Part shown: positions 25,970 to 50,622 of the stretch, in pieces
Layout of the letters: each line of letters starts with the position of its first letter
How positions within the stretch are numbered: the first letter of the stretch is position 1
Origin: Pseudomonas saudimassiliensis
GTDB taxonomy: Bacteria > Pseudomonadota > Gammaproteobacteria > Pseudomonadales > Pseudomonadaceae
Assembly: GCF_000939975.1 (NCBI RefSeq)
Contig: NZ_LK391969.1
Location: forward strand, 776,693 to 840,692
Direction of reading: 5' to 3'
DNA: 64,000 bases
Notes under the pieces: model-generated
Seen by the model: the letters and a program-made list of their open reading frames with translations, nothing else
Databases searched by the model: none
What the model was told of the DNA's origin: nothing
Made by a program: the position numbers and the translations under genes

Positions 25970-25987
25970 TCGTCTGAACGGACGATG
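25970..25987. promoter_or_regulatory. Operator-like palindrome, site C (between divergent units)
   Basis: TCGTCTGAACGGACGATG is the most symmetrical copy of the island motif and lies midway between two divergent starts (59 and 65 bases away). It would control both the six-gene side-chain operon and the enoyl-CoA hydratase. A -10-like AACAAT begins 29.5 bases from its centre on the rightward side; the leftward hexamer CATAGA is weaker. Confidence 0.6.
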
Positions 25988-26051
25988 AAGCACACCCATG
26001 CCAAACCAACAATCGAAGCCAGTTCCCATCCTCTGCAGCCAAAGGCCTACC

Positions 26052-26837
26052 ATGTCCTCATCCGACTCCCCCTGCGTCCTGCTCGACCTGCCCGCCCCCG
26101 GCGTGGCCCGGCTCACCCTCAACCGGCCAACGGTGACCAACGCCCTCAGCCTCGAACTGCAGGCACTGCTGGCCGAGCACTTCCGCCAACTGGCCACCGA
26201 CCCGCAGATCCGCTGCATCATCCTCACCGGCGGTGACAAGGTATTCGCCGCCGGGGGCGACATCTCCAGCATGGCCGGGGTTGGCGCCATCGATATCTAC
26301 CAGCGCCATACCGAACGCACCTGGGCGCCGATCCAGCAATGCCCCAAGCCGGTGATCGCCGCGGTGTGCGGCTATGCCTACGGTGGCGGCTGCGAACTGG
26401 CAATGCATGCCGACATCCTCATTGCCGGGCGCAGCGCGCGCTTCTCCCAGCCGGAAATCCGCATCGGCATCATGCCTGGCATCGGCGGCACCCAGCGGCT
26501 GGTGCGCGCGGTGGGCAAGGCCAAGGCGATGCAGATGGCGCTGACCGGCCGGCCCATCAGCGCCGAAGAAGCCCATATCGCCGGATTGGTCAGCGAGGTA
26601 GTGGAGGACGACCAGGTACAGGCTGCGGCCCTGGAGCAGGCCATATTGATTGCCGGGATGCCGCCGCTGGCCGCCGAGCAGATAAAGGAAGTGATCCTGG
26701 CCGGCATGGACGCCTCGCTGGAGGCGGCGCTGGCGTTGGAGCGCAAGGCTAACGCTTTGCTGTTCGCCTCCCAGGATCAGAAGGAAGGGATGCAGGCGTT
26801 TATCGAGAAGCGCCGGCCGCGGTTTACCGGCAACTGA
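26052..26837 (+). CDS. Enoyl-CoA hydratase
   Basis: This 261-residue crotonase-fold enzyme has both catalytic glutamates in their normal motifs, YGGGCELAMHAD near residue 115 and SQPEIRIGIMPGIGGTQR near residue 137. It should therefore be a true hydratase adding water to a trans-2-enoyl-CoA, unlike the crotonase at 3113. In this setting it could act on a longer steroid side chain or on C/D-ring intermediates. AAAGG lies nine bases before the chosen ATG at 26052; an in-frame ATG at 25998 is less likely. Confidence 0.85.
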   Translation: MSSSDSPCVLLDLPAPGVARLTLNRPTVTNALSLELQALLAEHFRQLATDPQIRCIILTGGDKVFAAGGDISSMAGVGAIDIYQRHTERTWAPIQQCPKPVIAAVCGYAYGGGCELAMHADILIAGRSARFSQPEIRIGIMPGIGGTQRLVRAVGKAKAMQMALTGRPISAEEAHIAGLVSEVVEDDQVQAAALEQAILIAGMPPLAAEQIKEVILAGMDASLEAALALERKANALLFASQDQKEGMQAFIEKRRPRFTGN

Positions 26838-26838
26838 C

Positions 26839-26873
26839 AAACAATAATCCCGCCAGCGGCGGGATTATTGTTT
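26839..26873. terminator. Bidirectional terminator between convergent genes
   Basis: A perfect 16-bp stem with a three-base loop has A-rich and T-rich ends, so it can stop both the hydratase transcript and the long leftward operon ending with the DUF1329 gene. Confidence 0.9.
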
Positions 26874-26908
26874 CTAGCACTAGTCCGCGCCAAGGAGCGG
26901 ACCCGTGG

Positions 26909-28288
26909 TCAGCGACCCGCGCGGCGCGCGGCCTCAGGGCCGAAATCGCGGGACGACAGCCCGCCCTGGTTGAGGAGATAGCCCTTGGGCTGCTCGTTGA
27001 CCAGGTTGAACGCCAGATGACTGCGTGCCTGCAGGTCATGGTACAGACCGGCACCGGCTTGCCAGGTCTGGGCTTCGGGCGCGTAATAGTAGTTGACCAT
27101 CGAGGTGCGCCACAGGCCACCGCGGGCGTCGTAGTTGTCGCCCATCACCATCAGCCAGGTATCCTCGTCCACATACATGTGCCGCTTGGTGTACAGGTGG
27201 CGGTAGTTGTCCTTGATGTTGGCTTCCAGCACCCAGACCCTTCTCAGCTCATAGCGCATGTACTCGGGATTGACGTGGCCCGGGGTCAGCAGGTCTTCAT
27301 ATTTCACCTCCGGAGAGTGGATGCGATAGGCGTTGGCCGGTACGTACATCTCCTGCTTGCCGACGATCTTCCAGTTGTAGCGCTGGCCCGAGCCGTTGAA
27401 GATCCGCACCTCGTCGACGGTGATGGTGCCGCCGGAGCCGGGGAACTGCATGTCAAAGCCATATTCCGGCGACTGGCGCACACGGCGGGTACCCGGGTCG
27501 TAGCGCCAGCTCTGACGCGGCTCCTTGGCATGGTCGAAGAACTCGATGCCGGTGTTGATTTCACCCCGGTCGCGCTGGGGCAGCAGCGTCTCATTGCGGT
27601 AGTAGGATGATGCGCCGGTAGTGGTGCCGATCTTGCCCGGCTCCAGTGGCGGCGCCAGGTTCTTCGACGCCACCTGGCCCCAGGTGATGCGACCGTTGCT
27701 CAGCACATAGGCGTTATCCGACACCAGCTCTTCGGTCCAGGGGCGGTAGGTGAAGAAGGATGATGTCCACATCAGCTCCAGCCCGGTTTTCGGGAAGGGG
27801 AAAAGGATGCCACCGGTGGTTCCCTCGACGCCCTCACCATCACTGACCACCTTGGCTGACTTGGCATTCTCCAGGGTCGCTTCACAGACGCTGTCGGGGA
27901 AGCGGAAGTCCCGGCGGGTTTCATATACCGGAATGGCAAAGGTGTCCGGATAGGTCTCGAACAGGGCCTTCTGGCCGGCCGACAGGCGCTCGGCGTGCTC
28001 GGCCATGTTCGCTGCGGTAATGGTGAACAGCGGCTGGTCATCGGGATAGGGGTCTACCGGATGCTGGCCGGGAATCGGCGCTTCCATGTGATCCGGCACG
28101 CCCAGCCATTTGCCGGTCCACGCGGTGATGCTGCCGTCGGCGTTGGCTGCCTTCTCGGCGCCAACACAGGTGAGATCCTTGCCCAGGCGGGCGATTTCTT
28201 CCGGCGTGGCAGCAGCGTGTGCCAGCCCTGCACCCAGCAGCATATTCGCAGCCACCACGGCCGCACCCAGAGGTTTGATCATGCGCAT
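26909..28288 (-). CDS. DUF1329 periplasmic lipid-binding-like protein
   Basis: This 459-residue protein has a Sec signal peptide (cleavage near AHAA, residue 25) and no lipobox. The DUF1329 family has a LolA/LolB-like fold that could hold a hydrophobic ligand in the periplasm. The segment ANAYRIHSPEVKYEDLLTPG is near residue 320. It is directly downstream (13 bases) of a DUF1302 gene; the two families regularly occur as a pair near lipid-related genes. Here the pair would serve steroid passage through the envelope. AGGGAG precedes the ATG. It is the last gene of the hsaA-kstD operon. Confidence 0.8.
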   Translation of the reverse strand: MRMIKPLGAAVVAANMLLGAGLAHAAATPEEIARLGKDLTCVGAEKAANADGSITAWTGKWLGVPDHMEAPIPGQHPVDPYPDDQPLFTITAANMAEHAERLSAGQKALFETYPDTFAIPVYETRRDFRFPDSVCEATLENAKSAKVVSDGEGVEGTTGGILFPFPKTGLELMWTSSFFTYRPWTEELVSDNAYVLSNGRITWGQVASKNLAPPLEPGKIGTTTGASSYYRNETLLPQRDRGEINTGIEFFDHAKEPRQSWRYDPGTRRVRQSPEYGFDMQFPGSGGTITVDEVRIFNGSGQRYNWKIVGKQEMYVPANAYRIHSPEVKYEDLLTPGHVNPEYMRYELRRVWVLEANIKDNYRHLYTKRHMYVDEDTWLMVMGDNYDARGGLWRTSMVNYYYAPEAQTWQAGAGLYHDLQARSHLAFNLVNEQPKGYLLNQGGLSSRDFGPEAARRAGR

Positions 28289-28301
28289 GCGGTTTGCTCC
28301 C

Positions 28302-29960
28302 TCAGAAAGTGTATTTGACGTTGAATGACAGATAGTCGCGGTCGGCCATCAGGCGGCCCTTGTCGACATCCGGCGAGGACAGGTAGTTGACCCAGGTGGT
28401 GCCGATCTCGAAGTTGCCCATGTAGCTGAAGTCCGCGCCCAGCGTCAGGGTCTTCTCGTCGCGACCCAGGCCCTGGTAGGCGCTGCCATCGAGGTTCTGC
28501 TGCCAGGTGGCGTTCAGGCTCAGGTCCCAGCCGGTGAATACGCTCGGATAATCAAGGACCGCACCCAGGCCCAGCAGGGTGCTGGAGCGGGTCTGGGTGC
28601 CATAGGTGTAGTCGTCGTCGGTGGAGATTACCCCGCCGGCGTCCATGTAGAGGGTGTCGACATCCATGATGCGCTGGTTGACCACTTCCCCCATCAGGGT
28701 CGTCTGGTTGGCGAGGCCGTTGGGACCCATCATGTAGACGAAGTTGGCACTGGTCATCAGCAGCTCACCGGTGGTCGGTGCACCGCCGGCCAGCACCACG
28801 GGTGCATCCTGGCGCAGGCTGATATCCGAGCCGATCTGCACATCGCCCACCTTGGAGGTCAGGCTCAGGCCGGTCAGCTTGATGTCCTCGAAATAGCCGA
28901 ACTTGATCACCGGGCCGGCGGCGTCCAGGTGGTCGATGCTGTCCAGGGACGAGTAGCGGGTGGTGCCCGTCATATCCAGGAACATGGAGGCAACGCGGTC
29001 GTGATAGCGGTAGTGGTAGAGCCCGACCTCGGTGTTGAAGTCGATATTCCAGCGCACCCCCAACCCCCATTGGCCGGAATCACGCGGGTCGCGATCGCCG
29101 GCACTGGCCACCACGGCACCGTCCGGCAGACTGTCGATTACCCCCGGGGCAAAGCGCATGAACTGCGCGCCGGGGCCGAAGAAGTCGGTGGTGCTGAAGA
29201 AGTCACCCACCGGGTTCAGGCGGGTCTTTTCCCACTCCAACTGGTAGAAACCGGTAAATGCCCATCGATCGTTCAGCGCGTAGGTGAAGGAGAACTGGTT
29301 GACCGGCAGGTAGGCATCCTTGGCTTCGGTACCGGGGACGTTGAACTTGGTCGCATCCACCGGCGCCTGGCCCTGGCTGATGTTGGTCCAGAACAGACTC
29401 TCGCCCCAGGCCACCAGATGGCGGCCCAGATTCATTGACAGGTACTGTTCTTCGCCGATCGGCCAGCTGCCATAGACGTAGGCATCGAGCAGCTGGAAGC
29501 GGCTGCCACTCTCGCTGCGGGTCTTGCTGACGAAGTGCTGCTCGTCGCCGCCCTGACCCACCAGGCGGTTGACCGTGGCGGCCGAGTCGTTGTCGTTCGT
29601 GCCCTTGTAGACGTCGTCATAGAAATGACTGGCGCGCAGTACCGCACCGTAGTTGTCCTTGGTGGCGAGGATCTCGCCGAACAGGCTGACCCGGTTGTTC
29701 ACCGGCGCATAGCGGTCGAAGTTGCGGGTGCCGTCGTCGTTGTTCAGCGCTTCCGGGGCTAGGTAGCGGCTGTCAGGGCCGCGGGTCCGGAAGGAATAGG
29801 TGTAGTTGGCAGTAATCTGGGAATCGATGCTCAGCCCGTTGCTGAAATCCAGCGAGGGCAAGGCAGTGGCCGTCGGGCTGTTCAACGCAACCGCAACGGC
29901 CATCGCGAGGGGTGTACCCCGCACTGCAAGGCGCGCAAGAGGGATCTTCTTGTTATTCAC
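28302..29960 (-). CDS. DUF1302 outer-membrane beta-barrel protein
   Basis: This 552-residue protein has a signal peptide (basic N-terminus, then LAMAVAVALNSPTATA) and many alternating hydrophobic strands with aromatic girdles. It ends in SFNVKYTF, the terminal aromatic residue typical of outer-membrane barrels. The family is thought to form a channel for hydrophobic compounds. I place the start at a GTG (29960), since AGGAG lies six bases before it; the open frame continues upstream without a ribosome site. It pairs with the DUF1329 protein and follows the acyl-CoA ligase gene. Confidence 0.8.
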   Translation of the reverse strand: MNNKKIPLARLAVRGTPLAMAVAVALNSPTATALPSLDFSNGLSIDSQITANYTYSFRTRGPDSRYLAPEALNNDDGTRNFDRYAPVNNRVSLFGEILATKDNYGAVLRASHFYDDVYKGTNDNDSAATVNRLVGQGGDEQHFVSKTRSESGSRFQLLDAYVYGSWPIGEEQYLSMNLGRHLVAWGESLFWTNISQGQAPVDATKFNVPGTEAKDAYLPVNQFSFTYALNDRWAFTGFYQLEWEKTRLNPVGDFFSTTDFFGPGAQFMRFAPGVIDSLPDGAVVASAGDRDPRDSGQWGLGVRWNIDFNTEVGLYHYRYHDRVASMFLDMTGTTRYSSLDSIDHLDAAGPVIKFGYFEDIKLTGLSLTSKVGDVQIGSDISLRQDAPVVLAGGAPTTGELLMTSANFVYMMGPNGLANQTTLMGEVVNQRIMDVDTLYMDAGGVISTDDDYTYGTQTRSSTLLGLGAVLDYPSVFTGWDLSLNATWQQNLDGSAYQGLGRDEKTLTLGADFSYMGNFEIGTTWVNYLSSPDVDKGRLMADRDYLSFNVKYTF

Positions 29961-30038
29961 TGTCTGCTCCTGATGTTGTTGTTCGCACAGTGGTTTGCGA
30001 GCTTCAAGTATCAGAATGGCGACAGCGAACCGCATACC

Positions 30039-31655: not shown

Positions 31656-31674
31656 GACTACTTGTCTCACTTGT

Positions 31675-32711: not shown

Positions 32712-33473
32712 TCAGATACTCATTACAAATTGTCCGCTGTCCACGCGCAGCTCGATGCCGTTGACGGCCCGGGAGTCGTCCGAAGCCAGATACAGCACAG
32801 CCCCGGCGACATCCTCGGGAAGGCAGGCGCGGTTCATCGGATCGTGATCGATGGTAAACAGCGATGAATCCATCCCCTGCGGATAGCCGCCCTGGGTCAT
32901 CGGGGTCATGACCCCGTCGGGATGGACCGAGTTACAGCGAATGCGGTATTTGGCGCGGCGACAGTGCACCGCCACGCTGCGGGTCAGCGCGGCAACTGCC
33001 CCCTTGCTGGCGCCGTACGCCAGATAGTCATGGCGCGCGGCCAGCGCCGCGATCGAGGACATGTTGATGATGGAGCCGCCGCCGGCATCCTTCATCAGCG
33101 CCACGGCGGTCTGGCAACCGAGGAATACGCTGTCCGAATTGATCCGCAGCAGCCGGTGCCACTGCTCCAGCGTGGCTTCCTCGATGCTGCCGGGAATCAG
33201 CACGCCGGCGTTGTTGACCAGCACGTCCAGCCGCGGAAAGCGTTCGCGCACCAGCGCCGCCAGCGCCTGCCAGTCCGCCGGGTCGCTGACGTCCTGACGC
33301 AGGAACAACGCCTGGTCGCCCAGCTCGGCAGCCAGTCGCTCGCCCTGCTCCACATTCAGATCAGTCAGCACCACCTGCGCTCCTTCACCCACGAAGCGCC
33401 GGGCCACCGCAGCGCCGATACCGCTGGCGGCGCCGGTGACGACCGCTACCCGGTCAAGCAGTCGCGGTTGCAT
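32712..33473 (-). CDS. 3beta/17beta-hydroxysteroid dehydrogenase-like SDR
   Basis: This 253-residue SDR closely resembles in my memory the Comamonas testosteroni 3beta/17beta-HSD: RVAVVTGAASGIGAAVARRF at the start, NNAGVLIPGSIE near residue 80, and NSVHPDGVMTPM near residue 177. The catalytic Ser and Tyr-x-x-x-Lys (YGASK near 150) are present. It would oxidise a 3beta or 17beta hydroxyl to the ketone using NAD. AGGAG precedes the ATG at 33473, which lies inside the end of kstD (20-base overlap). Confidence 0.82.
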   Translation of the reverse strand: MQPRLLDRVAVVTGAASGIGAAVARRFVGEGAQVVLTDLNVEQGERLAAELGDQALFLRQDVSDPADWQALAALVRERFPRLDVLVNNAGVLIPGSIEEATLEQWHRLLRINSDSVFLGCQTAVALMKDAGGGSIINMSSIAALAARHDYLAYGASKGAVAALTRSVAVHCRRAKYRIRCNSVHPDGVMTPMTQGGYPQGMDSSLFTIDHDPMNRACLPEDVAGAVLYLASDDSRAVNGIELRVDSGQFVMSI

Positions 33474-35196
33474 GCCGCTGCTCCTGCCGGGCCTGCGCGG
33501 CATGGTGCGCGGCGACATACCCGAAGGTCATCGCCGGACCCAGGGTGCCGCCCGCGCCCGGATAGGTGGTGCCCATCACCGAAGACGAGGTATTGCCGAT
33601 GGCATACAGCCCGGCGATCGGCTCGCCGGACTCATGCAGCACCTGCGCATGCTCGTTGGTCAGCAGGCCGCCCTTGGTGCCGATGTCGCCGGCGTACATG
33701 GGCATGGCATAGAACGGGCCCTTCTCCAGCGGCGCCAGGCAGGGGTTGGGCGTGACGTTGCTGTCGCCGTAGTAGCGATCGAACACGTTGCCGCCACGGC
33801 CGAAATCCTCGTCCACGCCACTGCGGGCAAAACCGTTGACCCGCTCCACGGTGGCCTTGAGACCGCTGGCGTCAACGCCGATCTGGCCGGCCAGGGCGTC
33901 CAGCGACTCGGCCCTGTAGTAGACGTTGTTCAGCCAGGCCTTGCGCAGGCGGCTGTCAGGCATGATCTGCGCCGGCATCAACGGACCCATGGCGTAGTTG
34001 AAGCGGAACTTGCTGTCGAAGATCACCCAGCCCGGAATGCTCGCGCCGGTCTGCTGGTGGTCATCGTACATGGCGGTGACGAACTCCAGGTAAGGCGCCG
34101 CCTCGTTGACGAAGCGTTTGCCCTGGCCGTTGACCACAATGGCGCCGGGGAAGGCGCGCTCGGCAAAGACGCCGCGGGCGCGGTCCTCGCCGGGCACCAG
34201 CAGGCTCGGCGCCCACCAGCCCCAGTCCATCAGATCGGTGGCCGCGCCCAGTTGCTGGGCGGCGAGCAGCGCCGCCCCGGTATTGTTGCCGGCGGGCGTG
34301 GCGCTCCAGGCGACATTGCTGGGCTGGGGCAGATACTTGTCCCGCAGCGCCTGGTTCTGTTCGAAGCCGCCGGCAGCCAGCACCACTCCCTTGCGTGCAT
34401 GCAGACGCTGCAACTGGCCCTCACGCTCCACCAGAATGCCCGTGACCCGGCCATCTTCCTCGATCAGTTCACGCATGTCGGTCTTCAGCCACAGGGCGAT
34501 ACCGCGGTCCATCATGGAGGCACGCAGACTGGCTACCAGTGAGCTGCCCAGCGCCGCGCGGCGGTCGCGCTTGCTCTTGGTCCTGCGCCGCCAGGCGAAG
34601 TCGAGCTTGTAGCGCAGCATCATCCACAGCACCATCAGCCGCCAGCCACGGGATTTGGACATGGCGCGGTGCGCATCCCTGGCGGTCCAGGCGATGCGGC
34701 CCATCAGCATGTTGCCCGGCGCACCCTCGCGCATGGCGTGCAGCTCGTCACCCAGCTGGCTGAGATCGAACAGCTCGGGGTCCAGACTGCGACCGCCCGG
34801 CAGCGAGCCAGGCAGGTGGGGATAGTAATCGGGGTATTTTTCCGCCACGGCGTAACGCACCCGGGTGTGCTTTTCCAGCCAGGCGATCATTTCTGGGGCT
34901 TTCTTCAGATAGGTGCGCAGGCGGCGCTCGTCAACCCGGTCGCCGACAGCGGCCTTCAGGTAGGTCCAGGACAACTCTTCACTGTCATTACCGCCCTTGG
35001 CCCGGAAGTAATGGTTATTGGGGATCCAGATGCCACCGCCGGACAGGGCCGAGGTTCCGCCGTACTGGTCGGCCTTTTCCACCACCAGTACCTTCAGGCC
35101 CTGGTCCGCGGCGGTCACTGCGGCGGTCATGCCGCCCGCGCCGGAGCCCACCACGATAAGGTCATACTCTGCGCTGAATTCATTGTTGTTATGCAT
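33454..35196 (-). CDS. kstD: 3-Ketosteroid dehydrogenase (KstD family flavoprotein)
   Basis: This 580-residue FAD enzyme has the dinucleotide motif LIVVGSGAGGMTAAVTAADQG near residue 14, EKADQYGGTSALSGGGIWIPNN near 42 and a C-terminal YAIGNTSSSVMGTTYPGAGGTLGPAMTFGYVA. It introduces a double bond into ring A of 3-ketosteroids, most likely delta-1, which is needed with 9alpha-hydroxylation to open ring B. A delta-4(5alpha) enzyme of the same family cannot be excluded from the sequence. The start at 35196 (MHNNNEF) has a weak AAGAG; a much longer upstream frame overlaps hsaA and is not coding. Confidence 0.82.
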   Translation of the reverse strand: MHNNNEFSAEYDLIVVGSGAGGMTAAVTAADQGLKVLVVEKADQYGGTSALSGGGIWIPNNHYFRAKGGNDSEELSWTYLKAAVGDRVDERRLRTYLKKAPEMIAWLEKHTRVRYAVAEKYPDYYPHLPGSLPGGRSLDPELFDLSQLGDELHAMREGAPGNMLMGRIAWTARDAHRAMSKSRGWRLMVLWMMLRYKLDFAWRRRTKSKRDRRAALGSSLVASLRASMMDRGIALWLKTDMRELIEEDGRVTGILVEREGQLQRLHARKGVVLAAGGFEQNQALRDKYLPQPSNVAWSATPAGNNTGAALLAAQQLGAATDLMDWGWWAPSLLVPGEDRARGVFAERAFPGAIVVNGQGKRFVNEAAPYLEFVTAMYDDHQQTGASIPGWVIFDSKFRFNYAMGPLMPAQIMPDSRLRKAWLNNVYYRAESLDALAGQIGVDASGLKATVERVNGFARSGVDEDFGRGGNVFDRYYGDSNVTPNPCLAPLEKGPFYAMPMYAGDIGTKGGLLTNEHAQVLHESGEPIAGLYAIGNTSSSVMGTTYPGAGGTLGPAMTFGYVAAHHAAQARQEQRHATATA

Positions 35197-35254
35197 GTCG
35201 AGACTCTTGTCACTGTTCAGCAGGTGCCGCCGGCGGGCCGGCGGCCAGGTTGGA

Positions 35255-36445
35255 TCAGACGTAGGGGTCAGGGTTGGGCAGGCCCAGCTGCACCGCACCG
35301 TAGGTCCGGGCGAAGGCCGCCACGTTGTTGGAGATATGCCCCCGCGCCTGGTGCAGGTCGCGGAACACGCGGGCCACCGGGTTGGTGTTGTACAGGCCGG
35401 ACGCCGCCATGCAGCGCAGCAGCTGATCGGCCTTGTCGGCACAGATATTGGTCACGTAGGCCGACTGGTAGCGGTACAGCAGACGGGTTTCCACATCGGG
35501 GAACTCGTTGCGCTCGGCCAGCTCCATCAGGTGCGCCATGTTGCGCTCGAGCACCAGCCGGAGCTGGTCCAGGGTCAGGGTCGCGTCGGCCACCACTTCC
35601 TGGGCCAGCGGGTCTTCCGCGGTCTTGGCGCCGTGCTTGCCGATATGCTTGGCAGCATTGGCACGGAATTCGTTGATCGCCCCCTGCAACGCACCCAGGC
35701 AGGAGCTGGATACCGCGCGGGTAAAGATCTGCGCGAAGGGAATGGCGTACAGCGGATTGGTATTGACCAGGCGACCGGGGGTGGCCTCCATGCTGGTGTT
35801 GTTGGTGCGCTGGACCCGGTGGAAGGGCACGAAGGCATCTTCCACCACGATGTCATGACTACCGGTGCCGCGCAGGCCCAGCACATCCCAGTTGCGCTCG
35901 ATACGGTAGTCGCTGATCGGCACCAGGAAGGTGCCATGTTCGGCGCCTTCGCCATTGGCATCCGGCGGGATGATGCCGCCCAGCAGGGTCCAGGTGCAGT
36001 GCTCGCTGCCGCTGGAGAAACCCCAGCGGCCGCTGATGCGATAACCACCCTCGACCGGCGTGACCTTGGCGACCGGCATGTAGGTCGAGCCCACCAGGGT
36101 GTCGGGGTTGTCGCCCCACACATCTTCCTGGGCCTGCACGTCGAAGCGTGCCAGCTGCCAGGGATGTACGCCCATCACGCCGTAGATCCAGGCGGTGGAC
36201 ATGCAGCCTTCGGCCAGTGCCATCTGGATCTCGAAGAACCCACGCGGGTCCATCTCGAAACCGCCGAAGCGCTTGGGCTGCATGGCGCGGAACAGTCCCG
36301 CCTCGCGCATATCAGCCACAGTCTCGACCGGCACTTTCATGTCCCGGTCAGCCTGTTCGGCTCGCGCCCGCAGGGCCGGGATCAACTGCCGTGCGCTGGC
36401 CAGCAATTCGCGTTCTTTTTCACTTCTTTCGCGGGTGACACCCAT
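35255..36445 (-). CDS. hsaA: 3-HSA monooxygenase, oxygenase component (HsaA-like)
   Basis: This 396-residue protein has the acyl-CoA dehydrogenase fold used by two-component flavin monooxygenases, with PKRFGGFEMDPRGFFEIQM near residue 57, GRWGFSSGSEHCTW near 139 and a C-terminal region around RDLHQARGHISNN near 365. It uses reduced flavin to hydroxylate the aromatic ring A of 3-HSA to a catechol. The reductase partner is hsaB at 38309. GGAGGAG lies before the ATG. It is the first gene of a seven-gene leftward operon down to 26909, and its promoter carries operator site E. Confidence 0.87.
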   Translation of the reverse strand: MGVTRERSEKERELLASARQLIPALRARAEQADRDMKVPVETVADMREAGLFRAMQPKRFGGFEMDPRGFFEIQMALAEGCMSTAWIYGVMGVHPWQLARFDVQAQEDVWGDNPDTLVGSTYMPVAKVTPVEGGYRISGRWGFSSGSEHCTWTLLGGIIPPDANGEGAEHGTFLVPISDYRIERNWDVLGLRGTGSHDIVVEDAFVPFHRVQRTNNTSMEATPGRLVNTNPLYAIPFAQIFTRAVSSSCLGALQGAINEFRANAAKHIGKHGAKTAEDPLAQEVVADATLTLDQLRLVLERNMAHLMELAERNEFPDVETRLLYRYQSAYVTNICADKADQLLRCMAASGLYNTNPVARVFRDLHQARGHISNNVAAFARTYGAVQLGLPNPDPYV

Positions 36446-36496: not shown

Positions 36497-36540
36497 ATTA
36501 TCTGGAGCCGGTGCCGGCCACTCATCGTCAAAGCGGACTA
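36497..36540 (-). promoter_or_regulatory. hsaA operon promoter with operator site E
   Basis: The 18-base motif (TAGTCCGCTTTGACGATG in gene orientation, 36540-36523) is followed by a good -10 hexamer, GATAAT (36502-36497), starting 29.5 bases from the motif centre. No consensus -35 is seen, as expected for an activator-dependent promoter. The rest of the 247-base gap (36446-36692) holds no gene. Confidence 0.6.
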
Positions 36541-38123: not shown

Positions 38124-38170
38124 GCAGCCTTCTCCTTGTTCTTGTTTGCCGTAGCATCGTAGTAGCCCGC

Positions 38171-38214
38171 AAGATAGATAAGCGCCCTGCCCCGCACCTC
38201 GTCCATTCGGACCA
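38171..38214 (-). promoter_or_regulatory. Aldehyde dehydrogenase promoter with operator site F
   Basis: In gene orientation the motif reads TGGTCCGAATGGACGAGG (38214-38197), and a -10-like TATCTT (38176-38171) starts 29.5 bases from its centre. It lies back to back with site G for the hsaB operon. Confidence 0.55.
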
Positions 38215-38231
38215 GTATCCCCACTCTGCGT

Positions 38232-38275
38232 TAGTCCATAAAGACGATGACCGGCCAGTGTCCCCGCCCAATACT
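38232..38275 (+). promoter_or_regulatory. hsaB operon promoter with operator site G
   Basis: TAGTCCATAAAGACGATG (38232-38249) is followed by a -10-like AATACT (38270-38275) starting 29.5 bases from the motif centre and about 35 bases before the hsaB start. Confidence 0.6.
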
Positions 38276-38308
38276 GCGGCCACTGAACCTGAATAATACG
38301 AGGCAGAT

Positions 38309-39322: not shown

Positions 39323-39333
39323 GGGGCCGCGGC

Positions 39334-40107: not shown

Positions 40108-40120
40108 ACGGAACCCGATA

Positions 40121-40912: not shown

Positions 40913-40928
40913 CGTCCGGAGGCAACCC

Positions 40929-41849
40929 ATGAGCAAGAAGATCCGCTGTGCCCTGATCGGGCCTGGCAATATTGGCACCGACCTGCTGTACAAGCTGCAG
41001 CGCAGCGAGGTACTGGAGCCGGTGTGGATGGTCGGCATCGACCCCACCTCCGAGGGCCTCAAGCGCGCCGAGGAAATGGGCCTGAAGACTACCAGCGAGG
41101 GTGTCGATGGCCTGTTGCCGCACGTACGTGACGACGACATCCGCATCGCCTTCGATGCCACCTCGGCCTATGTGCATGCCGAGAACAGCCGCAAGCTCAA
41201 CGAGCTGGGCGTATGGATGATCGACCTGACCCCGGCGGCGATCGGCCCCTTCGTGGTGCCCTCGGTGAATCTGCAAGAACACGCAGGTCAGCCGATTCTC
41301 AACGTCAACATGGTCACCTGCGGTGGCCAGGCCACCATTCCCATGGTCGCCGCGGTATCCCGTGTGCAATCGGTGGAATACGGCGAGATCGTCGCGACCG
41401 TGTCGTCCCGCTCAGTAGGACCGGGCACGCGCAAGAATATCGATGAATTCACCCGCACCACCTCCGGCGCCATCGAGCAGGTGGGCGGCGCGAAGAAGGG
41501 CAAGGCGATCATCGTCATCAACCCGGCCGAGCCGCCGCTGATCATGCGCGACACCATCCACTGCCTGACGACCGACACCCCGGACCAGGCGCGCATCACC
41601 GACTCGATCCACAGCATGATTGCCGAGGTGCAGAAATACGTGCCCGGTTACAAGCTGGTCAACGGCCCGGTATTCGACGGCAACCGCGTCTCGGTGTTCA
41701 TGGAGGTCGAGGGTCTTGGCGACTTCCTGCCCAAGTACGCCGGCAATCTGGACATCATGACCGCCGCCGGCGCTCGCACCGCCGAACTGTTCGCCGAGAA
41801 GATGCTCGATGGCAGTTTCGACCCCGACGCCATTGCCGCCACCCTGTAA
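40929..41849 (+). CDS. hsaG: Acylating acetaldehyde/propionaldehyde dehydrogenase (HsaG/TesF)
   Basis: This 306-residue enzyme converts the aldehyde released by the next gene's aldolase to propionyl-CoA or acetyl-CoA with NAD and CoA. The NAD-binding motif [17 protein letters not shown] begins near residue 7 and the catalytic cysteine is in [14 protein letters not shown] near residue 127. Length and motifs are those of BphJ/DmpF/TesF. GGAGG precedes the ATG at 40929. It is expected to form a channelling complex with the aldolase HsaF. Confidence 0.93.
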
Positions 41850-41859
41850 GGAGCCGCCC

Positions 41860-42885
41860 ATGAACCTGCAAGGCAAGAAAATCACACTGCACGACATGAC
41901 CCTGCGTGATGGTATGCACCCCAAGCGCCACCAGATCAGCCTGGAGCAGATGCAGGCCATCGCCAAAGGTCTGGATGATGCGGGCATTCCGCTGATCGAA
42001 GTAACCCACGGTGACGGCCTGGGCGGCAGCTCGGTGAACTACGGCTTCCCGGCGCATACCGACGAGCAGTACCTGTCGGCCGTGGTGCCATTGATGAAGA
42101 ACGCCAAGGTATCCGCCCTGCTGCTGCCGGGCATCGGTACCATCGACCACCTGAAAATGGCCCGGGAGATCGGCGTCAATACTATCCGCGTGGCCACCCA
42201 CTGCACCGAGGCCGATGTGTCCGAACAGCACATCAACCTGGCCCGCAAGCTGGAGATGGACACCGTCGGCTTTCTGATGATGGCGCACATGAACAGCCCC
42301 GAAGGCCTGGCCGAGCAGGCCAGGCTGATGGAAAGCTATGGTGCCAACTGCGTATACATCACCGACTCGGCGGGCTATATGCTGCCCCATGATGTCAGCG
42401 CGCGGATCAGCGCGGTGCGCGCCGCCCTGCGCCCGGACACCGAGATAGGCTTCCACGGTCACCACAACCTGGCCATGGGCGTAGCCAACTCCATCGCCGC
42501 GATCGAGTGCGGTGCTACCCGTATCGACGCCGCCGCTGCAGGGCTGGGCGCCGGCGCCGGCAATACGCCGATGGAGATCCTGGTCGCCGTGTGCGCGCGC
42601 ATGGGTATCGAGACCGGCGTTGACGTGTTCGGTATCCAGGACGTAGCCGACGACCTGGTGGTGCCGATCATGGACTTCCCCATCCGCAGCGACAAGGACG
42701 CCCTGACCATGGGCTATGGCGGCGTCTACGGCTCCTTCCTGCTGTTCGCCAAGCGCGCCGAGAAGAAGTACGGCGTACCGGCCCGGGAAATCCTGGTCGA
42801 GATGGGCCGCCGCGGCATGGTTGGCGGCCAGGAAGACATGATCGAAGACACCGCGCTTACCCTGCTCAAGCAGCGCCAGGGCTGA
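41860..42885 (+). CDS. hsaF: 4-Hydroxy-2-oxovalerate/hexanoate aldolase (HsaF/TesG)
   Basis: This 341-residue TIM-barrel metal-dependent aldolase of the DmpG family has the signature [15 protein letters not shown] near residue 11 (metal-binding Asp, catalytic Arg and His) and [15 protein letters not shown] near 198 with the metal-binding His-x-His. It splits 4-hydroxy-2-oxohexanoate to pyruvate and propanal, which passes to HsaG. AAGGAG precedes the ATG. The 179 bases after it contain one imperfect hairpin (42907-42928) without a T-run, and no gene. Confidence 0.93.
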
Positions 42886-43064
42886 GCCAGCGGCACCATC
42901 TGGGATGGTTCGAGCACCAGCTCGTACCAAGGCTAGCCGGCACCGCAACCGCTGCCGGCGGACTGGACTGGTCGCGTCTGGCGCGCCTCGGATTCGGCCC
43001 GACCGGTCGTAGCCGGGGCGCAGCTCCCAGGCCCGCTGCCCTCCCCCAACCCAGGAGATCCACC

Positions 43065-44378
43065 ATGTCGGCAACCGATATCCACACCAGCAGAGCCAGC
43101 CATACGGTGCTGGCCCTGCTGGTCGGGGGTTATGCGAGCATCTTTCTCGGCCGCCAGATCATGGCGGTGATGATAGAGCCCATCAAACTCGAGTTCGGTG
43201 CCAGCGATACCGCCATGGGACTGATTTCCGGGCTGGCCTTTGCCGTGGCCTACGCCCTGATGGGCCTGCCTGCCGGGGGCCTGGCTGACCGCCACTCCCG
43301 GGTTCGCCTGTTGGCCCTGTGCGGCGTCGTCTGGGCGATCACCACGGTTATCTGCGGCTTGGCCGTCAGTTTCCCGATGCTGGTGGTGGCGCGCATGCTG
43401 GTGGCGGTGACCGAAGCACCGGTTACCCCTGCCTCCCTATCGCTGATTGCCGACCTGTACCCGGCACGCAACCGTTCCCTGGCCATCAGCTGCTTTACCG
43501 CTGCACCAACGCTGTCCGCCATCGTCGGGTTGAGCCTGGGCGCCTGGGTCATCGACACCTGGGGCTGGCGCACCGGCTTTCATATCATCGCCACGCCCCC
43601 GCTGCTGATCTCGGTACTGTTGGCGCTCGCCGTGCGCGAGCCACCCCGCGGCCGTTTCGACAATCCACTGCATGCCGGTGCACCGGGGCTGACCCTGTGG
43701 CGTTCGGCAGGGCAGCTGCTGGGCAACCCCCACTATCGCAAGCTGGTCGCCGCCTGCGCCTGGTTCAGTTTCAGCGGGCTGGCCTTTGCCATGTGGAACA
43801 CGCCGTTCCTGATCCGCTCCCATGGCCTGTCGCTGCAGAGTGCCGGCATCCTCGCCGGAGTGGTCACCGGTTGCAGCGCGGCTGTGGGCGGGCTGTTCAG
43901 CGGTTGGCTGAGTGATCGGCTGAATGTGCGCAGCCCGGCCTGGCTGCTGGGCTTGCCGCTGATTGGCACTGGCTTCACCCTGCTCAGCATGCTGCTGTAC
44001 CTGCTCTGGCCGCCGGGCATCGCGTTCCGGGTGGGCGCGGTCGATGTGCCAGCCGCCATGCTCTGGTGCGCGCTGGCGGGTTTCTTCACCATGTGGTGGG
44101 TGGCGCCCTGCTTCAATCTGTTGACGCAGATGGTCAGCCCCTGGCAGCGCGCTACCGCCATTGCCCTGCAGACCATCTGCACTACCCTGGCCGGGATCGG
44201 CCTCGGGCCGCTGTTGACCGGTGCGTTAAGCGACCTGTTGCTGCCCTGGAGTGGCGGCGAGTCGCTGCGGCATGCCCTGCTGCTGGTGCACCTGAGCCTG
44301 CTGCTAGCGATGTTCCTGCTGTGGCGGCTGTACCGCCAGCAGGCCTTCGCGCCAGCGCAGGCGTTGCCAGCAACGTGA
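43065..44378 (+). CDS. MFS transporter at the end of the hsaB operon
   Basis: This 437-residue protein has 12 predicted helices, with the MFS loop motif GGLADRHSRVRLLAL near residue 70 and TEAPVTPASLSLIADLYP near 114. It resembles anion/aromatic-acid or glucarate-type MFS uptake proteins. It could move a steroid acid or a HIP-like intermediate across the inner membrane, but nothing in the sequence fixes the substrate. AGGAGA precedes the ATG. It converges with hsdA, the stops being 14 bases apart. Confidence 0.75.
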   Translation: MSATDIHTSRASHTVLALLVGGYASIFLGRQIMAVMIEPIKLEFGASDTAMGLISGLAFAVAYALMGLPAGGLADRHSRVRLLALCGVVWAITTVICGLAVSFPMLVVARMLVAVTEAPVTPASLSLIADLYPARNRSLAISCFTAAPTLSAIVGLSLGAWVIDTWGWRTGFHIIATPPLLISVLLALAVREPPRGRFDNPLHAGAPGLTLWRSAGQLLGNPHYRKLVAACAWFSFSGLAFAMWNTPFLIRSHGLSLQSAGILAGVVTGCSAAVGGLFSGWLSDRLNVRSPAWLLGLPLIGTGFTLLSMLLYLLWPPGIAFRVGAVDVPAAMLWCALAGFFTMWWVAPCFNLLTQMVSPWQRATAIALQTICTTLAGIGLGPLLTGALSDLLLPWSGGESLRHALLLVHLSLLLAMFLLWRLYRQQAFAPAQALPAT

Positions 44379-45160: not shown

Positions 45161-45242
45161 GCTTGAACTCCTGTTGTGATGGCTCTTGCAGGTTGGCCGA
45201 CGTCGACCAGCCCGGTCTCTATTCCTTGGTGAAGCAGCTGGA

Positions 45243-46763: not shown

Positions 46764-46807
46764 CACCCCTCCTTGTTCTTATTGTGTGGTGTTTTGTCTT
46801 GTCTTGG

Positions 46808-47449
46808 TCACGGCTGAAAGGCGACGAACCTTTCCTGCAGGGTCGCCAGTGGGGTATCACATCGCTCGACCTGCACCATCCTCTGCAGCCCGGGCAATTG
46901 CGTCAGCGCGGCGGGTAGCGGCTCGCTGCGATCAAGCCAGTCGATCCATAACAGCGCGTTACAGGGCAGCGGGCAGCGCGGGTCATTGTCCAGCAGGTCC
47001 AGGTGCATGCCGTGCAGATCCGGGCGGGCACTCGTCAGTTGCTCGGCCAACTGCCGCGCCTCGGCCAGCAGACTGTCCCCGTGCCATTCCAGCAGCAGGA
47101 CCCGGCTGTCGAGCCGCCCTGTCGCCGGGTCCCGGGCTGGGGTGATCAACACATGCCGGCGCACCCCGGCGACGCGGATCCGCGCCGGGTCCATGAATTT
47201 CAGTTCATCGTCCATGACCAGCTGCCGGGAGCGGGAGCCCATCACATCCACGTCATCCAGCCAGGCCGGGGCTTCGAATTCACTGATGCAATCGAAATCC
47301 AGCTCCGGATGATCGAGCAGATGGTTGCGCGTATAGCCCAGGAACGGGAAATACTGCATGGCCAGCGGGCAGTGGGTGGTTTCGTAGTAATCCCGAAACC
47401 CGGCGCGGTCCAGGTCGGCGCGCCGTGAAACCAGGGAAACAGCTTTCAT
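46808..47449 (-). CDS. EthD-domain protein
   Basis: This 213-residue soluble protein has an N-terminal EthD-like (dimeric alpha/beta barrel) domain with AGFRDYYETTHCPLAMQYF near residue 15, and a second similar fold may follow from about residue 105. EthD relatives occur beside degradation genes and some act as small isomerases, decarboxylases or heme-binding proteins; the reaction here is unknown. Its ATG overlaps the stop of the Cache gene (ATGA), so the two are translationally coupled. Confidence 0.65.
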   Translation of the reverse strand: MKAVSLVSRRADLDRAGFRDYYETTHCPLAMQYFPFLGYTRNHLLDHPELDFDCISEFEAPAWLDDVDVMGSRSRQLVMDDELKFMDPARIRVAGVRRHVLITPARDPATGRLDSRVLLLEWHGDSLLAEARQLAEQLTSARPDLHGMHLDLLDNDPRCPLPCNALLWIDWLDRSEPLPAALTQLPGLQRMVQVERCDTPLATLQERFVAFQP

Positions 47450-48330
47450 TCCTTTTCCTTCGCCATCGGGTTGTCCGGCATCTCGCCGTACCAGCCAACC
47501 AGTACCAAGTAGCGGCCCACCCGCTGGATCAGCGCCGTCTTGGGCTCGACCTTCTGGGTCGCCGGGTTGCGCCACTGGTAACTGAACTGGCCAGTGTCAC
47601 GGCCCTGCATATATTCCAGCAGCGGCGCCCCCAGGGGCTCGCCGGCATGGTCGTCGACATTGTCGAAGCGGCTGCCGACCAGGCCACGGTTGTAGCCATG
47701 GCCAACGAAACGCTCGGTCTCGCTGTCGATGATCACCGGATAGGTGTCGTCCTGGTAGAACTGGGCATCCAGCTGGTTGATCTGGCGGATGGTTTGTTCG
47801 GCATCGTCGGTCAGCGCGGCCGCGACCCGTTCCAGCATGTTCTGCGCATCGGCGGGATCGGAGCGGGGAATGTAGTAGCCGACGGCAAGGATGTGTTCAT
47901 CGAGGATCTGGTAGAAGGCCTTCTTGCGCTCGACCCGGCCCTGCCGCCAATTGATCCAGCGATACTCGCCTTGCTGGATCTGGCCGGTGACCGGCTGCGC
48001 CAGCACCGCCTCGAACCCCAGTTGCAACTGGTCATCCAGCAGGGGCGATATGTCCCGCCCGATCAGCTTGCGCGACGGGCCGCCGCTGGCCAGCATGGTG
48101 CCTTTACGGTCGACTACAAAGACGTACAGGTCATCCTCGGAGAAGGGCCCGGTCCGGCTGAAGGCGGCAAAGGCGCGCTCGCCCTCCTCCTGGTAATAGG
48201 CCACCGCCCGCTCCAGCAACGCCCGGGCGCGCTCCTCGTCACTCTTGGTCGTGGTAGCGGCGACCAGTACGCCGCAGAACAGCGCCGACAGCAGCATACC
48301 GGCCGCCAGCCATTTCTTCATTGGTGTCAT
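47446..48330 (-). CDS. Secreted Cache-domain protein
   Basis: This 294-residue protein has a signal peptide (MTPMKKWLAAGMLLSALF...) and two Cache-like modules, one near residues 50-170 with DDLYVFVVDRKGTMLASGG, the other near 180-285 with DTYPVIIDSETERFVGHG. Cache domains bind small ligands outside the membrane, normally as the input of chemoreceptors or kinases, but here there is no output domain. It could be a periplasmic binding or scavenging protein. GGGAG precedes the ATG at 48330. It is the first gene of the operon leading to hsdA, under operator site B. Confidence 0.7.
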   Translation of the reverse strand: MTPMKKWLAAGMLLSALFCGVLVAATTTKSDEERARALLERAVAYYQEEGERAFAAFSRTGPFSEDDLYVFVVDRKGTMLASGGPSRKLIGRDISPLLDDQLQLGFEAVLAQPVTGQIQQGEYRWINWRQGRVERKKAFYQILDEHILAVGYYIPRSDPADAQNMLERVAAALTDDAEQTIRQINQLDAQFYQDDTYPVIIDSETERFVGHGYNRGLVGSRFDNVDDHAGEPLGAPLLEYMQGRDTGQFSYQWRNPATQKVEPKTALIQRVGRYLVLVGWYGEMPDNPMAKEKE

Positions 48331-48389
48331 CAGCAACTCCCGATCCGTCACAGGGTAGCCCTGACGGTAGGATATGCCGCCGGCGGCAA

Positions 48390-48407
48390 CATCGTCCGTT
48401 CGGACGG
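48390..48407. promoter_or_regulatory. Operator-like palindrome, site B
   Basis: CATCGTCCGTTCGGACGG on the plus strand lies 60 bases before the Cache gene start and after the kshA terminator. A weak -10-like TACCGT starts 29.5 bases from its centre. Confidence 0.5.
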
Positions 48408-48415
48408 CAGCAACG

Positions 48416-48440
48416 AAAAAGGCCGCCCCATGGGGCGGCC
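48416..48440 (-). terminator. Intrinsic terminator of kshA
   Basis: A perfect 20-base palindrome (GGCCGCCCCATGGGGCGGCC) is followed on the minus strand by five T residues, 20 bases after the kshA stop. Confidence 0.85.
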
Positions 48441-48460
48441 CTGTTCACTGCCGGTCCGGC

Positions 48461-49501
48461 TCAGCGATTGTCGACGGTAATGAACTCGCGCAGCTCGTTC
48501 ATCTCCGCCGGGATCTCGGCCTCATCGGTGTAGAACTGTGCGTACCATTCACGCAGCTGGTAGATGGGGCCGTCCCCTTCCGCCAGTACCGGGAAGTCCA
48601 CCGGCCGCTTGGTACTCCAGATATCCACGTCCTGGTAGAAGGAGTTGCGGTTCTGTTGCACATACTCCAGCGCCAGCGCCTGGTTCTGTTCATCGGTCCA
48701 GCCGGGGATTTTCTTGACCAGTACGCCGAAACGCAGCTCGAACTGGTTCGGTTTGGTCGGCACGTGGCAGTTGAGCAGGATCGACTCCACCTTCATGCCG
48801 TCGTATTCCGCGGTCATGCGGGTGAAGTGGGTCGCCGGGCCGTAATAGGCCGAGTCCGCCACCAGGTCGCCGCCCAGGCGTTCGGAATCACCGTGGAACA
48901 GCTGGGTGCCGATGTGCCCCTGGAAGGTATTGCGGAAATACTTGGTCGGCGCATCGTGTACCGGACCGAAATGCTGCGCATCGACCAGGTTGTCCACCAG
49001 TTCGCGCGGGTGGGTGTCGATGATCATCAGGTCCAGGTGCCAGTCGTTGTCCCACTCGGGGCTGTCGATTTCCGGGAAGTAGGGGATCTCGACGCCCTCT
49101 GCCGGCGGCAAGCCTTCCGGGTTGTGCCAGACGAACAGCAACCGGTTGACCTCGCAGGTCAGCCACTTGCGGGTCTTGGCCTTGGGCGGAATGCGCTTGC
49201 AGTAGGGAATGTCGGTACAGCGGCCGCTGGCATCGAATTGCCAATGGTGGAACGGGCAGATCACCTTGCCATCCACCAGCTGGCCCTGGGACAGGTCTGC
49301 GCCCATATGCGGGCAATAGGAGTCCAGCACGGCGATCTGGTCGTCCTTGCCGACGAAGGCCAGCAGGCGCGTGCCGAAGATATTCAGGGTGTGCAGCTTG
49401 CCGTCACGGAAGCTGGCTGCTTCGCCAATACAATGCCAACCGCGGGCGTAACGGTACTCTGCCGTTTCCGCCACGGGTTTGATTTCGATCATCTGATTCA
49501 T
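48461..49501 (-). CDS. kshA: 3-Ketosteroid 9alpha-hydroxylase oxygenase (KshA-like Rieske protein)
   Basis: This 346-residue Rieske oxygenase has [2Fe-2S] ligands Cys63/His65 (CPHMGADLSQG) and Cys82/His85 (CPFHHWQFD). The mononuclear iron ligands lie in NLVDAQHFGPVHDAP (His177, His182, with bridging Asp174). This matches KshA, which hydroxylates C9 of 3-ketosteroids so that ring B opens. Electrons would come from KshB at 31675. The start at 49501 follows GAGGAT; an in-frame ATG at 49492 and longer frames are less likely. The 189-base leader contains a degenerate operator (site H). Confidence 0.85.
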   Translation of the reverse strand: MNQMIEIKPVAETAEYRYARGWHCIGEAASFRDGKLHTLNIFGTRLLAFVGKDDQIAVLDSYCPHMGADLSQGQLVDGKVICPFHHWQFDASGRCTDIPYCKRIPPKAKTRKWLTCEVNRLLFVWHNPEGLPPAEGVEIPYFPEIDSPEWDNDWHLDLMIIDTHPRELVDNLVDAQHFGPVHDAPTKYFRNTFQGHIGTQLFHGDSERLGGDLVADSAYYGPATHFTRMTAEYDGMKVESILLNCHVPTKPNQFELRFGVLVKKIPGWTDEQNQALALEYVQQNRNSFYQDVDIWSTKRPVDFPVLAEGDGPIYQLREWYAQFYTDEAEIPAEMNELREFITVDNR

Positions 49502-49654
49502 AATCCCGATCCTCACTGAGCGTTGAGCGTTGTTATAGTTTTTCGGCACGGCTCGGTTCAGCCCACCATGCAGCACCGCCCGATGCGGCGGCATGAACCT
49601 GTCGGAAAACCACATCCGATGTGCGGTATCTTCGCGCCAGCATGGCGCCCGCTA

Positions 49655-49672
49655 CATCCCTCACTTGGACTA
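49655..49672. promoter_or_regulatory. Degenerate operator-like site H upstream of kshA
   Basis: CATCCCTCACTTGGACTA keeps one half-site (GGACTA) and the outer CATC of the island motif but has lost GTC. It is 154 bases from the kshA start and no -10-like hexamer is at the standard spacing. Confidence 0.25.
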
Positions 49673-49690
49673 GGGCGCCAGCGGGTGACA

Positions 49691-50542
49691 TCAGACGGCC
49701 TGGTCGGGATGGTTCCAGGCCGGCACTATGCCGTGCTCCAGGGCAAAGGGCTGGGCATGTACGGTGCGCTTCTGGTGCAACCCCTGCTCGTCGTGCAGTG
49801 CCAACCAGCAGATCACGGCGGCCGGAACCGGCGGCGGCGCCGAGCCGGCGCCCAGCGCTCGTACCCCGGCCTCGCCAATGGTGGCCTTCAGTGCGTCCGT
49901 GGTGACTACCCCGGGGTTGACGGTGTAGGCGCGCAGCCCCTGCCCGCCCATTTCTGCCCTGAGTACGCCGGACAGCCGCGAGACCGCCGCCTTGCCGGCG
50001 CCATAGGCATAGCCCCAGCCGCCCTTGTCCGCAGCCACCGGCGGATTGCTCTCGCCGGCCCCCGAGGTGATGTTGATCACCACCCCGGCGCCCTGCTCCA
50101 GCATGGCCGGCAACAGCCGCTGGGTGAGCAGTACCGGCGCCAGCACATAACCCCGGTGCATGCGCTCCAGCGTGTCGGGTGTCAGGGCGAGGAAGGTGGC
50201 GTTCAGGTCACTGCCCTGATACACCGCGTTGTTGACCAGCACATCGATGCGCCCCGCCTCCCGCAGCAACTGCTCGGCGGCGGCCTGCACCGAGGCGGCG
50301 TCCAGCAGGTTCATCGGGATGCACCAGGCCTGGCGACCCAGTGCGCGGATCTCGGCGGCGACCGCGGCCAGACTACCCGGCAGTGGCTTGCCGTCCGCTC
50401 CGGTCAGCGCATGCTCATGCTGCTGCCCCTCTTCCAGCGTCCGTGCACTGATCGCCACATCAAAGCCGGCCCGGGCGAAAGCCAGCGCGGTTTCCCGGCC
50501 GATGCCACGGCTGGCGCCGGTCACCAATACCACCTTGTTCAT
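49691..50542 (-). CDS. SDR oxidoreductase upstream of kshA
   Basis: This 283-residue SDR is slightly longer than classical ones because of an insert after the coenzyme motif (residues 38-60). It has VLVTGASRGIGRETALAFARAG at the start, NNAVYQGSDLN near residue 107 and the catalytic Ser/Tyr/Lys in ITSGAGESN...YAYGAGKAAVSRL. NAV in place of the usual NAG is a small variation. The substrate is unknown; it may be another hydroxysteroid dehydrogenase. AGGAG precedes the ATG. Operator site D lies 63 bases upstream. Confidence 0.75.
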   Translation of the reverse strand: MNKVVLVTGASRGIGRETALAFARAGFDVAISARTLEEGQQHEHALTGADGKPLPGSLAAVAAEIRALGRQAWCIPMNLLDAASVQAAAEQLLREAGRIDVLVNNAVYQGSDLNATFLALTPDTLERMHRGYVLAPVLLTQRLLPAMLEQGAGVVINITSGAGESNPPVAADKGGWGYAYGAGKAAVSRLSGVLRAEMGGQGLRAYTVNPGVVTTDALKATIGEAGVRALGAGSAPPPVPAAVICWLALHDEQGLHQKRTVHAQPFALEHGIVPAWNHPDQAV

Positions 50543-50578
50543 ATTCTGCTCCTGAATGCCTGAGGCTATGCCGGGAGC

Positions 50579-50622
50579 AGTATCGAAGGGTGCTGCGCAG
50601 CGCTCATCGTCTGCGCAGACTA
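50579..50622 (-). promoter_or_regulatory. SDR (kshA region) promoter with operator site D
   Basis: In gene orientation TAGTCTGCGCAGACGATG (50622-50605) is followed by a -10-like GATACT (50584-50579) starting 29.5 bases from the motif centre. Confidence 0.6.

Follow-up and report, generated by a model that had tools for sequence, protein, structure and literature searches.

Few regulators of bacterial steroid catabolism have been described. In Comamonas testosteroni, TeiR/TesR is a LuxR-type activator encoded in the steroid cluster and required for inducing most known steroid genes, according to the accessible parts of the relevant papers, which give no operator for it (PMC6678751, PMC6895838, PMC13101464). 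Pseudomonas stutzeri Chol1 has two TeiR-like genes, deletion of one of which delays cholate degradation according to its authors' unpublished data; homologues of the actinobacterial KstR and KstR2 are stated to be absent from bile-acid-degrading Proteobacteria (both from the accessible text of PMC8399759). KstR and KstR2 are TetR repressors, and with them one operator unites a large steroid regulon. EdcR of Caenibius tardaugens, as far as the available text on it goes, is a repressor whose palindrome, TnnCnnTACnAnTnGTAnnGnnA, is positioned over the -10 of steroid (oestrogen) promoters. Class II activation by LuxR at a lux box employs a dyad at about -42.5 that overlaps the -35 slot. Here we analyse an 18-bp palindromic box that recurs in a 64,000-nucleotide stretch of the 3.34 Mb genome of Pseudomonas saudimassiliensis (contig NZ_LK391969.1, 776,693-840,692; hereafter the window), which contains part of a steroid degradation cluster.

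We consider it likely, with a probability of about 0.8 judged from sequence analysis, that steroid-responsive activators of the LuxR type, whose genes lie in the same cluster, bind at this motif, and the box is very probably the switch that turns on steroid breakdown in these bacteria. The locus resembles TeiR/TesR, which could be compared by description alone, in having a LuxR-type protein in a steroid cluster. It resembles KstR/KstR2 in the union of a large steroid regulon by one operator, EdcR in the presence of a palindrome in steroid promoters and the lux box in having its dyad near -42.5 over the -35 slot. It differs from both repressor systems in the regulator proposed and from EdcR also in the palindrome, while the differences from the lux box lie in the sequence, the PAS-containing protein and the association with a steroid cluster rather than quorum sensing. 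LuxR-type steroid activators are already known; what is new is a well-defined regulon with its box. Among the titles listed by our literature searches, which left subscription papers largely uncovered so that an earlier description is possible, there was no report of this motif or of a TeiR/TesR operator. The defined box and its promoter register make the regulon testable, with named promoters to measure; genes still unassigned become likely steroid genes if they have the box, which also offers parts for steroid biosensors, and counting boxes allows carriers of the system to be recognised in genomes.

An earlier note on this DNA, made by eye, had listed six 18-bp sites, and each is found exactly where it placed them (Table 1). 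The literal consensus it gave, TAGTCYGNNNRGACGATG, fits less well, being perfect at 50605 but having one difference at 25970, 36523 and 38232 and two at 38197 and 48390. A position weight matrix was built from the six sites alone and scanned over 124 kb comprising the cluster and its flanks, as well as over 400 kb sampled from this genome; the score thresholds of 15, 17 and 20 used below were set after the background had been seen. A broader alignment, in gene orientation, combined 16 sites of this genome with 39 of the 51 matrix matches from four other genomes of the order sample (G037, G139, G007 and G122), after manual removal of opposite-strand duplicates and of some matches from G122. Its 55 sites give the consensus T-M-G-T-C-Y-N4-R-G-A-C-G-A-T-G, in which GTC and GACGA are near-invariant and position 2 is A in 38 sites and C in 13. 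The box is a palindrome, TCGTCY-N4-RGACGA, often with A instead of C in the distal half, and T17 and G18 are kept on the promoter side alone. As to the earlier observation that the motif was not seen in the core-genome part, at a score of at least 13 the window yields the six sites, three opposite-strand readings of them and one weak match at 58120-58137.

Table 1. Boxes and candidate regulators of the steroid cluster. Positions are those of the window, except for the sites past it, which are numbered on the genome. ECH, enoyl-CoA hydratase; SDR, short-chain dehydrogenase/reductase; ACAD, acyl-CoA dehydrogenase; HTH, helix-turn-helix.
Feature	Position	Strand	Remarks
Box	25970..25987	+	Precedes ECH, likely start 26052; predicted -10 AACAAT, +1 ~26020
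25970 palindrome, other strand	25968..25985	-	Score 18.5; -10 TAGAGT in register, +1 ~25935; precedes side-chain operon
Side-chain operon	SDR 25126-25935, likely start 25911	-	SDR, then ChsH2/MaoC-like, ACAD, Ltp2-like thiolase, ACAD
Box	36523..36540	-	Precedes hsaA-kstD-SDR-kshB-ligase-DUF1302-DUF1329 (36445 down to 26909, putative operon); -10 GATAAT; start codon 45 nt past predicted +1
Box	38197..38214	-	Precedes aldehyde dehydrogenase (likely start 38123); -10 TATCTT
Box	38232..38249	+	Precedes hsaB-SDR-hsaE-hsaG-hsaF-MFS (38309 to 44378, putative operon); -10 AATACT
Box	48390..48407	-	Precedes Cache-EthD-amidase-SDR (hsdA-like) (48351 down to 44393, putative operon); weaker -10 TACCGT
Box	50605..50622	-	Precedes SDR-kshA (50542 down to 48461, putative operon); -10 GATACT
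Weak candidate box	58120..58137	-	Score 15.1, poor -10; precedes genes for a BNR-repeat protein and an MMPL transporter (57988 down to 54602)
LuxR paralogue	50654..51907	-	Sensor, PAS, HTH; candidate binder
LuxR paralogue	52036..53298	-	Candidate binder
LuxR paralogue	53457..54605	-	Candidate binder; query of co-occurrence tests
Fourth LuxR paralogue	L021:2588-3844		Outside window, own cluster
Held-out site past window	841224		Score 22.1
Held-out site past window	851417		Score 23.5
Held-out site past window	853942		Score 18.3
Held-out site past window	855482		Score 25.8
Held-out site past window	863467		Score 23.3
Held-out site past window	863529		Score 25.5
Held-out site past window	874655		Score 16.1
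Held-out site past window	877556		Score 24.5

Beyond the box, the alignment has a single conserved block, a -10 element made of A40 (42/55), A42 (30/55) and T44 (35/55), numbered from the box start. Hexamers with A2, T6 and at least four of six matches to TATAAT begin at positions 38-41, 19-22 nt past the box, at 13 of 16 sites in this genome, 20 of 39 in the four others and 41 of 62 in named relatives (the non-redundant part of 127 sites with flanks scoring at least 20), compared with 0-5 hexamers in 4-nt windows outside that register. With the -10 placed at -12, transcription would start at about position 51 and the centre of the dyad (8.5) would fall at about -42.5. The -35 slot reads GATGNN or similar and columns 19-21 are weakly conserved, indicating a weak or missing -35; since T17 and G18 coincide with the TG of a -35 hexamer at 17-bp spacing, the asymmetric end of the box may be a remnant of one. 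Start codons of open reading frames (ORFs) of at least 150 residues lie 0-98 nt past the predicted +1 in 16 of 19 readings in this genome (both strands being read at four palindromes), and 12 of the first-listed start codons lie 15-53 nt past it.

The dyad near -42.5, the fixed -10 and the poor -35 argue for an activator site instead of a repressor operator. This refines the earlier reading of the motif as an operator. A steroid-responsive repressor that leaves the box when substrate appears, as with KstR and EdcR, would have precedent, both of these having palindromic operators by the available descriptions, and polymerase could be blocked by a protein bound immediately before the -10; the clusters of some relatives (G007, G555), moreover, include a TetR gene. 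Against this, a box centred at about -42.5 with GATG in place of a -35 consensus fits a promoter that needs help, and the known LuxR-type steroid regulator, TeiR/TesR, is an activator (accessible parts of PMC6678751 and PMC13101464). A TetR or LysR binder was sought in the cluster of this genome and none was found, the MarR, GntR, IclR and other regulator families not having been searched; the genome has 12 TetR_N matches, none within 802-878 kb. In relatives' clusters, the kind of TetR or LysR gene present is not uniform. We therefore regard a repressor operator as unlikely.

On either strand, a -10 lies in register with the 25970 palindrome, which could thus drive the side-chain operon as well as the ECH gene, although none of three orthologues of the side-chain SDR has a site upstream. 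The longest ECH ORF (25998-26837) begins upstream of the predicted transcription start, and the real start is probably 26052.

Enrichment of the motif was assessed across the genome. The exact pattern GTCYNNNNRGACGATG matches 13 times, compared with once for the reversed control, and 10 of the 13 lie inside 802.6-877.6 kb. When the window that defined the motif is set aside, six of the nine remaining matches fall in the adjoining 38 kb (binomial P ~2e-10). Leave-one-out scores of the six window sites are 15.1-23.3, and in the 37 kb that follow the window the six-site matrix picks out eight held-out positions scoring 16.1-25.8; the two top scores in the 400 kb sample are 17.6 and 15.0. The enzymes encoded downstream of the held-out sites are SDRs, an HsaC-like extradiol dioxygenase followed by a long row of genes, acyl-CoA dehydrogenases, an OYE-family member and a Sal-like thiolase together with a ChsH2/MaoC protein. 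An MFS transporter and a DUF1329 protein are also encoded there. The exact motif is thus concentrated before steroid genes, including an hsaC-like gene outside the window, which, with the orthologous promoters considered below, bears out the proposal of a common regulatory site for the steroid transcription units.

The regulon extends at least 37 kb past the window and may also include, 550 kb away from the cluster, an SDR/SnoaL pair. There, an exact site at 251,078 (box G000:C1:251076-251093, equivalent to L024:5077-5094) precedes an SDR and a SnoaL-like gene (L024:5153-6034 and 6046-6519), possibly a hydroxysteroid dehydrogenase/isomerase pair. This box has no -10 that passes the hexamer test and adjoins a phage-integrase-family gene. 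The other exact GTCYNNNNRGACGATG matches outside the cluster are at 769,226 and 1,632,045.

The association of the box with its candidate binders was examined in two genome samples, one of the family (148 genomes) and one of the class (321), which have G000 (the present genome) and G020 in common. The LuxR protein at 53457-54605 was the query, at E <=1e-60, and exact copies of TAGTCYNNNNRGACGATG were counted per whole genome. All 39 LuxR carriers in the family have at least three copies (268 in all; one to four LuxR matches per carrier), compared with one of 109 non-carriers, counted as the rest of the sample: 92 of these have none, 16 have one or two and G290 has five. In the class, LuxR is found in G000 and G555, and at least three boxes in the same two and in none of the other 319, 15 of which have one or two. 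G555, picked by its LuxR and box count, has boxes before hsaA- and hsaC-like genes. This co-occurrence supports the LuxR proteins as the predicted binders, as the earlier note had supposed.

Counts in the order sample point the same way for closer LuxR sequences. In G037 (55% identity), G139 (47%), G007 (41%) and G122 (40%), chosen stretches contain 16, 7, 6 and 22 matrix matches of at least 15, respectively, and none occurs in 20 kb around KshA in each of G148, G063, G192 and G095, where LuxR identity is 35-38%. The stretches of G037, G139, G007 and G555 and part of those of G122 had, however, been picked where exact boxes, KshA or LuxR matches were seen, while those of G148, G063, G192 and G095 were taken around KshA or LuxR, so that only whole-genome counts provide a fair contrast. 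For a shorter pattern these are 9 in G037, 8 in G139, 7 in G007 (control 5) and 19 in G122. A further 20 stretches with distant LuxR or KshA yielded sites of at least 17 only in G174 and G027. Since KshA carriers with 35-38% LuxR (G148, G063, G192 and G095; L140-L143; most of L243-L262) lack the box there, a different operator may exist in them.

Co-occurrence alone cannot separate regulator from pathway genes, and the box might instead be the activator site of a conserved regulator encoded elsewhere, the LuxR genes merely travelling with the pathway. The five boxes of G290 would suit such a regulator. Where a good KshA occurs with no close LuxR, however, no box of at least 15 is present around KshA (the four genomes above and G008, G066 and G151), apart from one of 15.8 in G028, whereas G037 and G139 combine weak KshA matches (2.9e-42 and 7.9e-43) with a closer LuxR and many boxes. 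It is therefore the LuxR subfamily, and not this KshA, that the box follows; exceptions are G027 (36% LuxR), with a single box of 23.9 before KshA, and G174 (37%), where one site scores 23.5 and another 19.0. We think a regulator encoded elsewhere quite unlikely.

To measure conservation in relatives, named loci were selected for the similarity of their LuxR, so that they provide no control for LuxR absence. The 79 loci represent Halopseudomonas, Pseudomonas, Stutzerimonas, Aromatoleum, Thauera, Zoogloea and others. A site of at least 17 is present in 78 of them and one of at least 20 in 63, with 234 sites of at least 17 in 1,523 kb. Column-shuffled matrices gave 0-2 matches in 20 of these loci, compared with 55 for the real one. 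Orthologues were counted as the best match per locus at 45% identity and 70% coverage, many of the loci being closely related Pseudomonas. The site is most clearly retained in the promoter of HsaA, upstream of 39 of 40 orthologues, and is absent upstream of all 39 orthologues of the inner gene KshB.

It might be objected that the motif is an artefact of chance or composition, read by eye in a G+C-rich genome. A one-mismatch pattern, GTCYGNNNRGACGATG, matches 45 times genome-wide, no excess over its control (48), so that single-mismatch matches alone carry no meaning, and in Pseudomonadaceae without this LuxR exact matches to the shorter pattern can be numerous and scattered (18 in G094); G182, also with no LuxR of the subfamily, has 12. 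Boxes nevertheless occur at G+C contents from 0.47 to 0.67. The held-out sites, the -10 register, the shuffled matrices and the whole-genome family and class counts, in which the longer pattern sets the LuxR carriers apart, lead us to reject chance, which we rate as extremely improbable.

From the computed sites, their enrichment and conservation, the fixed -10 spacing and the LuxR co-occurrence, we infer LuxR binding, activation, ligand and operon limits along the following lines. With its N-terminal sensor and PAS domains, a LuxR dimer would detect a steroid, or a product formed early in steroid breakdown, and bind the dyad TMGTCY-N4-RGACGA, centred at about -42.5. It would then compensate for the missing -35 and recruit sigma-70 RNA polymerase to the -10 starting about 20 nt past the box, and some 15 promoters would fire together.

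Several observations weigh against activation by these LuxR proteins. G290, which is 83% complete, has its exact boxes with no LuxR match at 1e-60, attributable to a missing contig or to another binder, and co-inheritance of LuxR and steroid genes means that some other shared factor could be the binder. Relatives' clusters also include a TetR gene at the edge of that in G037 and LysR genes in G037, G139 and G555, in addition to the TetR genes mentioned above. G008, G140, G113 and G164 have a LuxR with RNTARAHLR yet no score of at least 17 in the stretch around it. The accessible text of PMC6678751 calls TeiR a polar membrane kinase, a trait that activation as proposed here does not need; none of nine LuxR proteins examined here has a membrane segment by hydropathy (maximum 1.58). 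Sites are found upstream of 77 of 185 orthologues of 16 first genes and of 28 of 334 orthologues of 18 control genes, among which KshA (16/29) and KstD (3/4) probably lead operons elsewhere. First genes with little or no conserved site are Sal (0/23), OYE (0/7) and SDR_L021 (1/12), and the SDR before kshA has one in 19 of 69 orthologues and the SDR at 251 kb in 0 of 3. LuxR promoters themselves have a site in only 3 of 81 cases. Finally, the opposite-strand readings at 863527, 874657 and 877558 are followed by no start codon within 98 nt.

The LuxR genes form a set of four paralogues. Pfam GerE (cut-off 23.5) matches three, with scores of 24.3 (52036-53298), 25.2 (53457-54605) and 26.1 (L021:2588-3844), and falls just under for 50654-51907 (23.3). 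Pfam PAS is found in 50654-51907, L021:2588-3844 and, at the cut-off, 52036-53298, with no match in 53457-54605; no receiver domain was matched by Pfam in any of the four. A structural model of 53457-54605 (mean pLDDT, predicted local distance difference test, 71.8) divides into a first sensor domain of alpha/beta type, a PAS-like domain and an HTH, residues 182-299 having, in our own reading, a PAS-like order of helices and strands. The named organisms with the closest relatives of this LuxR are Pseudomonas sp. MYb185 and Halopseudomonas xiamenensis (87%; records of the same genome may be omitted there). No solved relatives were found at 1e-5; relaxing E to 5 gave 12 chains, of which ten align over the HTH and VpsT is the best (0.02). 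In NCBIfam, the only matches cover the HTH region and score well under cut-off.

The segment RNTARAHLR is invariant across nine LuxR proteins of box-bearing genomes. As sole determinant of the box the recognition helix is unsupported, given G008, G140, G113 and G164. Identity among the four paralogues is 75-100% in the recognition segment, 66-96% in the HTH, 53-88% in PAS and 37-65% in the first sensor domain. This similarity of the DNA-binding helix and the divergence of the sensor suggest, tentatively and at somewhat less than even odds, that all four read one box, through which signals from different steroids or intermediates would converge on a single regulon. Box and LuxR recur together outside this family as well, with Aromatoleum, Thauera and Zoogloea among the carriers. 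The 3/81 count gives no support to LuxR autoregulation as a rule. Individual boxes do lie near LuxR genes, 236 nt before that of G007 and before the second of G555, and in G122 the initial TAG of the box doubles as a LuxR stop codon (L134:15432, L139:3529).

Window genes assigned by Pfam include KshA (48461-49615), an acyl-CoA-dehydrogenase-type HsaA (35255-36445), a KstD-like FAD protein (33454-35442), an HsaB-like flavin reductase (38309-39322), HsaE/G/F-like proteins (40073-42885) and an aldehyde dehydrogenase (36693-38324); names such as HsaA and HsdA derive from family and neighbourhood, some being taken from the earlier note. Its estimate of about 25 genes in one regulon agrees with the 26 counted in the window, with operon limits predicted from strand and spacing. 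Two DUF1329/DUF1302 pairs (26909-30035 in the window; L021:15354-18508) lie under box-bearing promoters and, with the MMPL transporter and BNR protein (54602-57988), look like a dedicated transport module. The hsdA-like gene row is headed by a gene encoding a single Cache (sCache_2) domain (47446-48351), for which a periplasmic ligand-binding role is conceivable.

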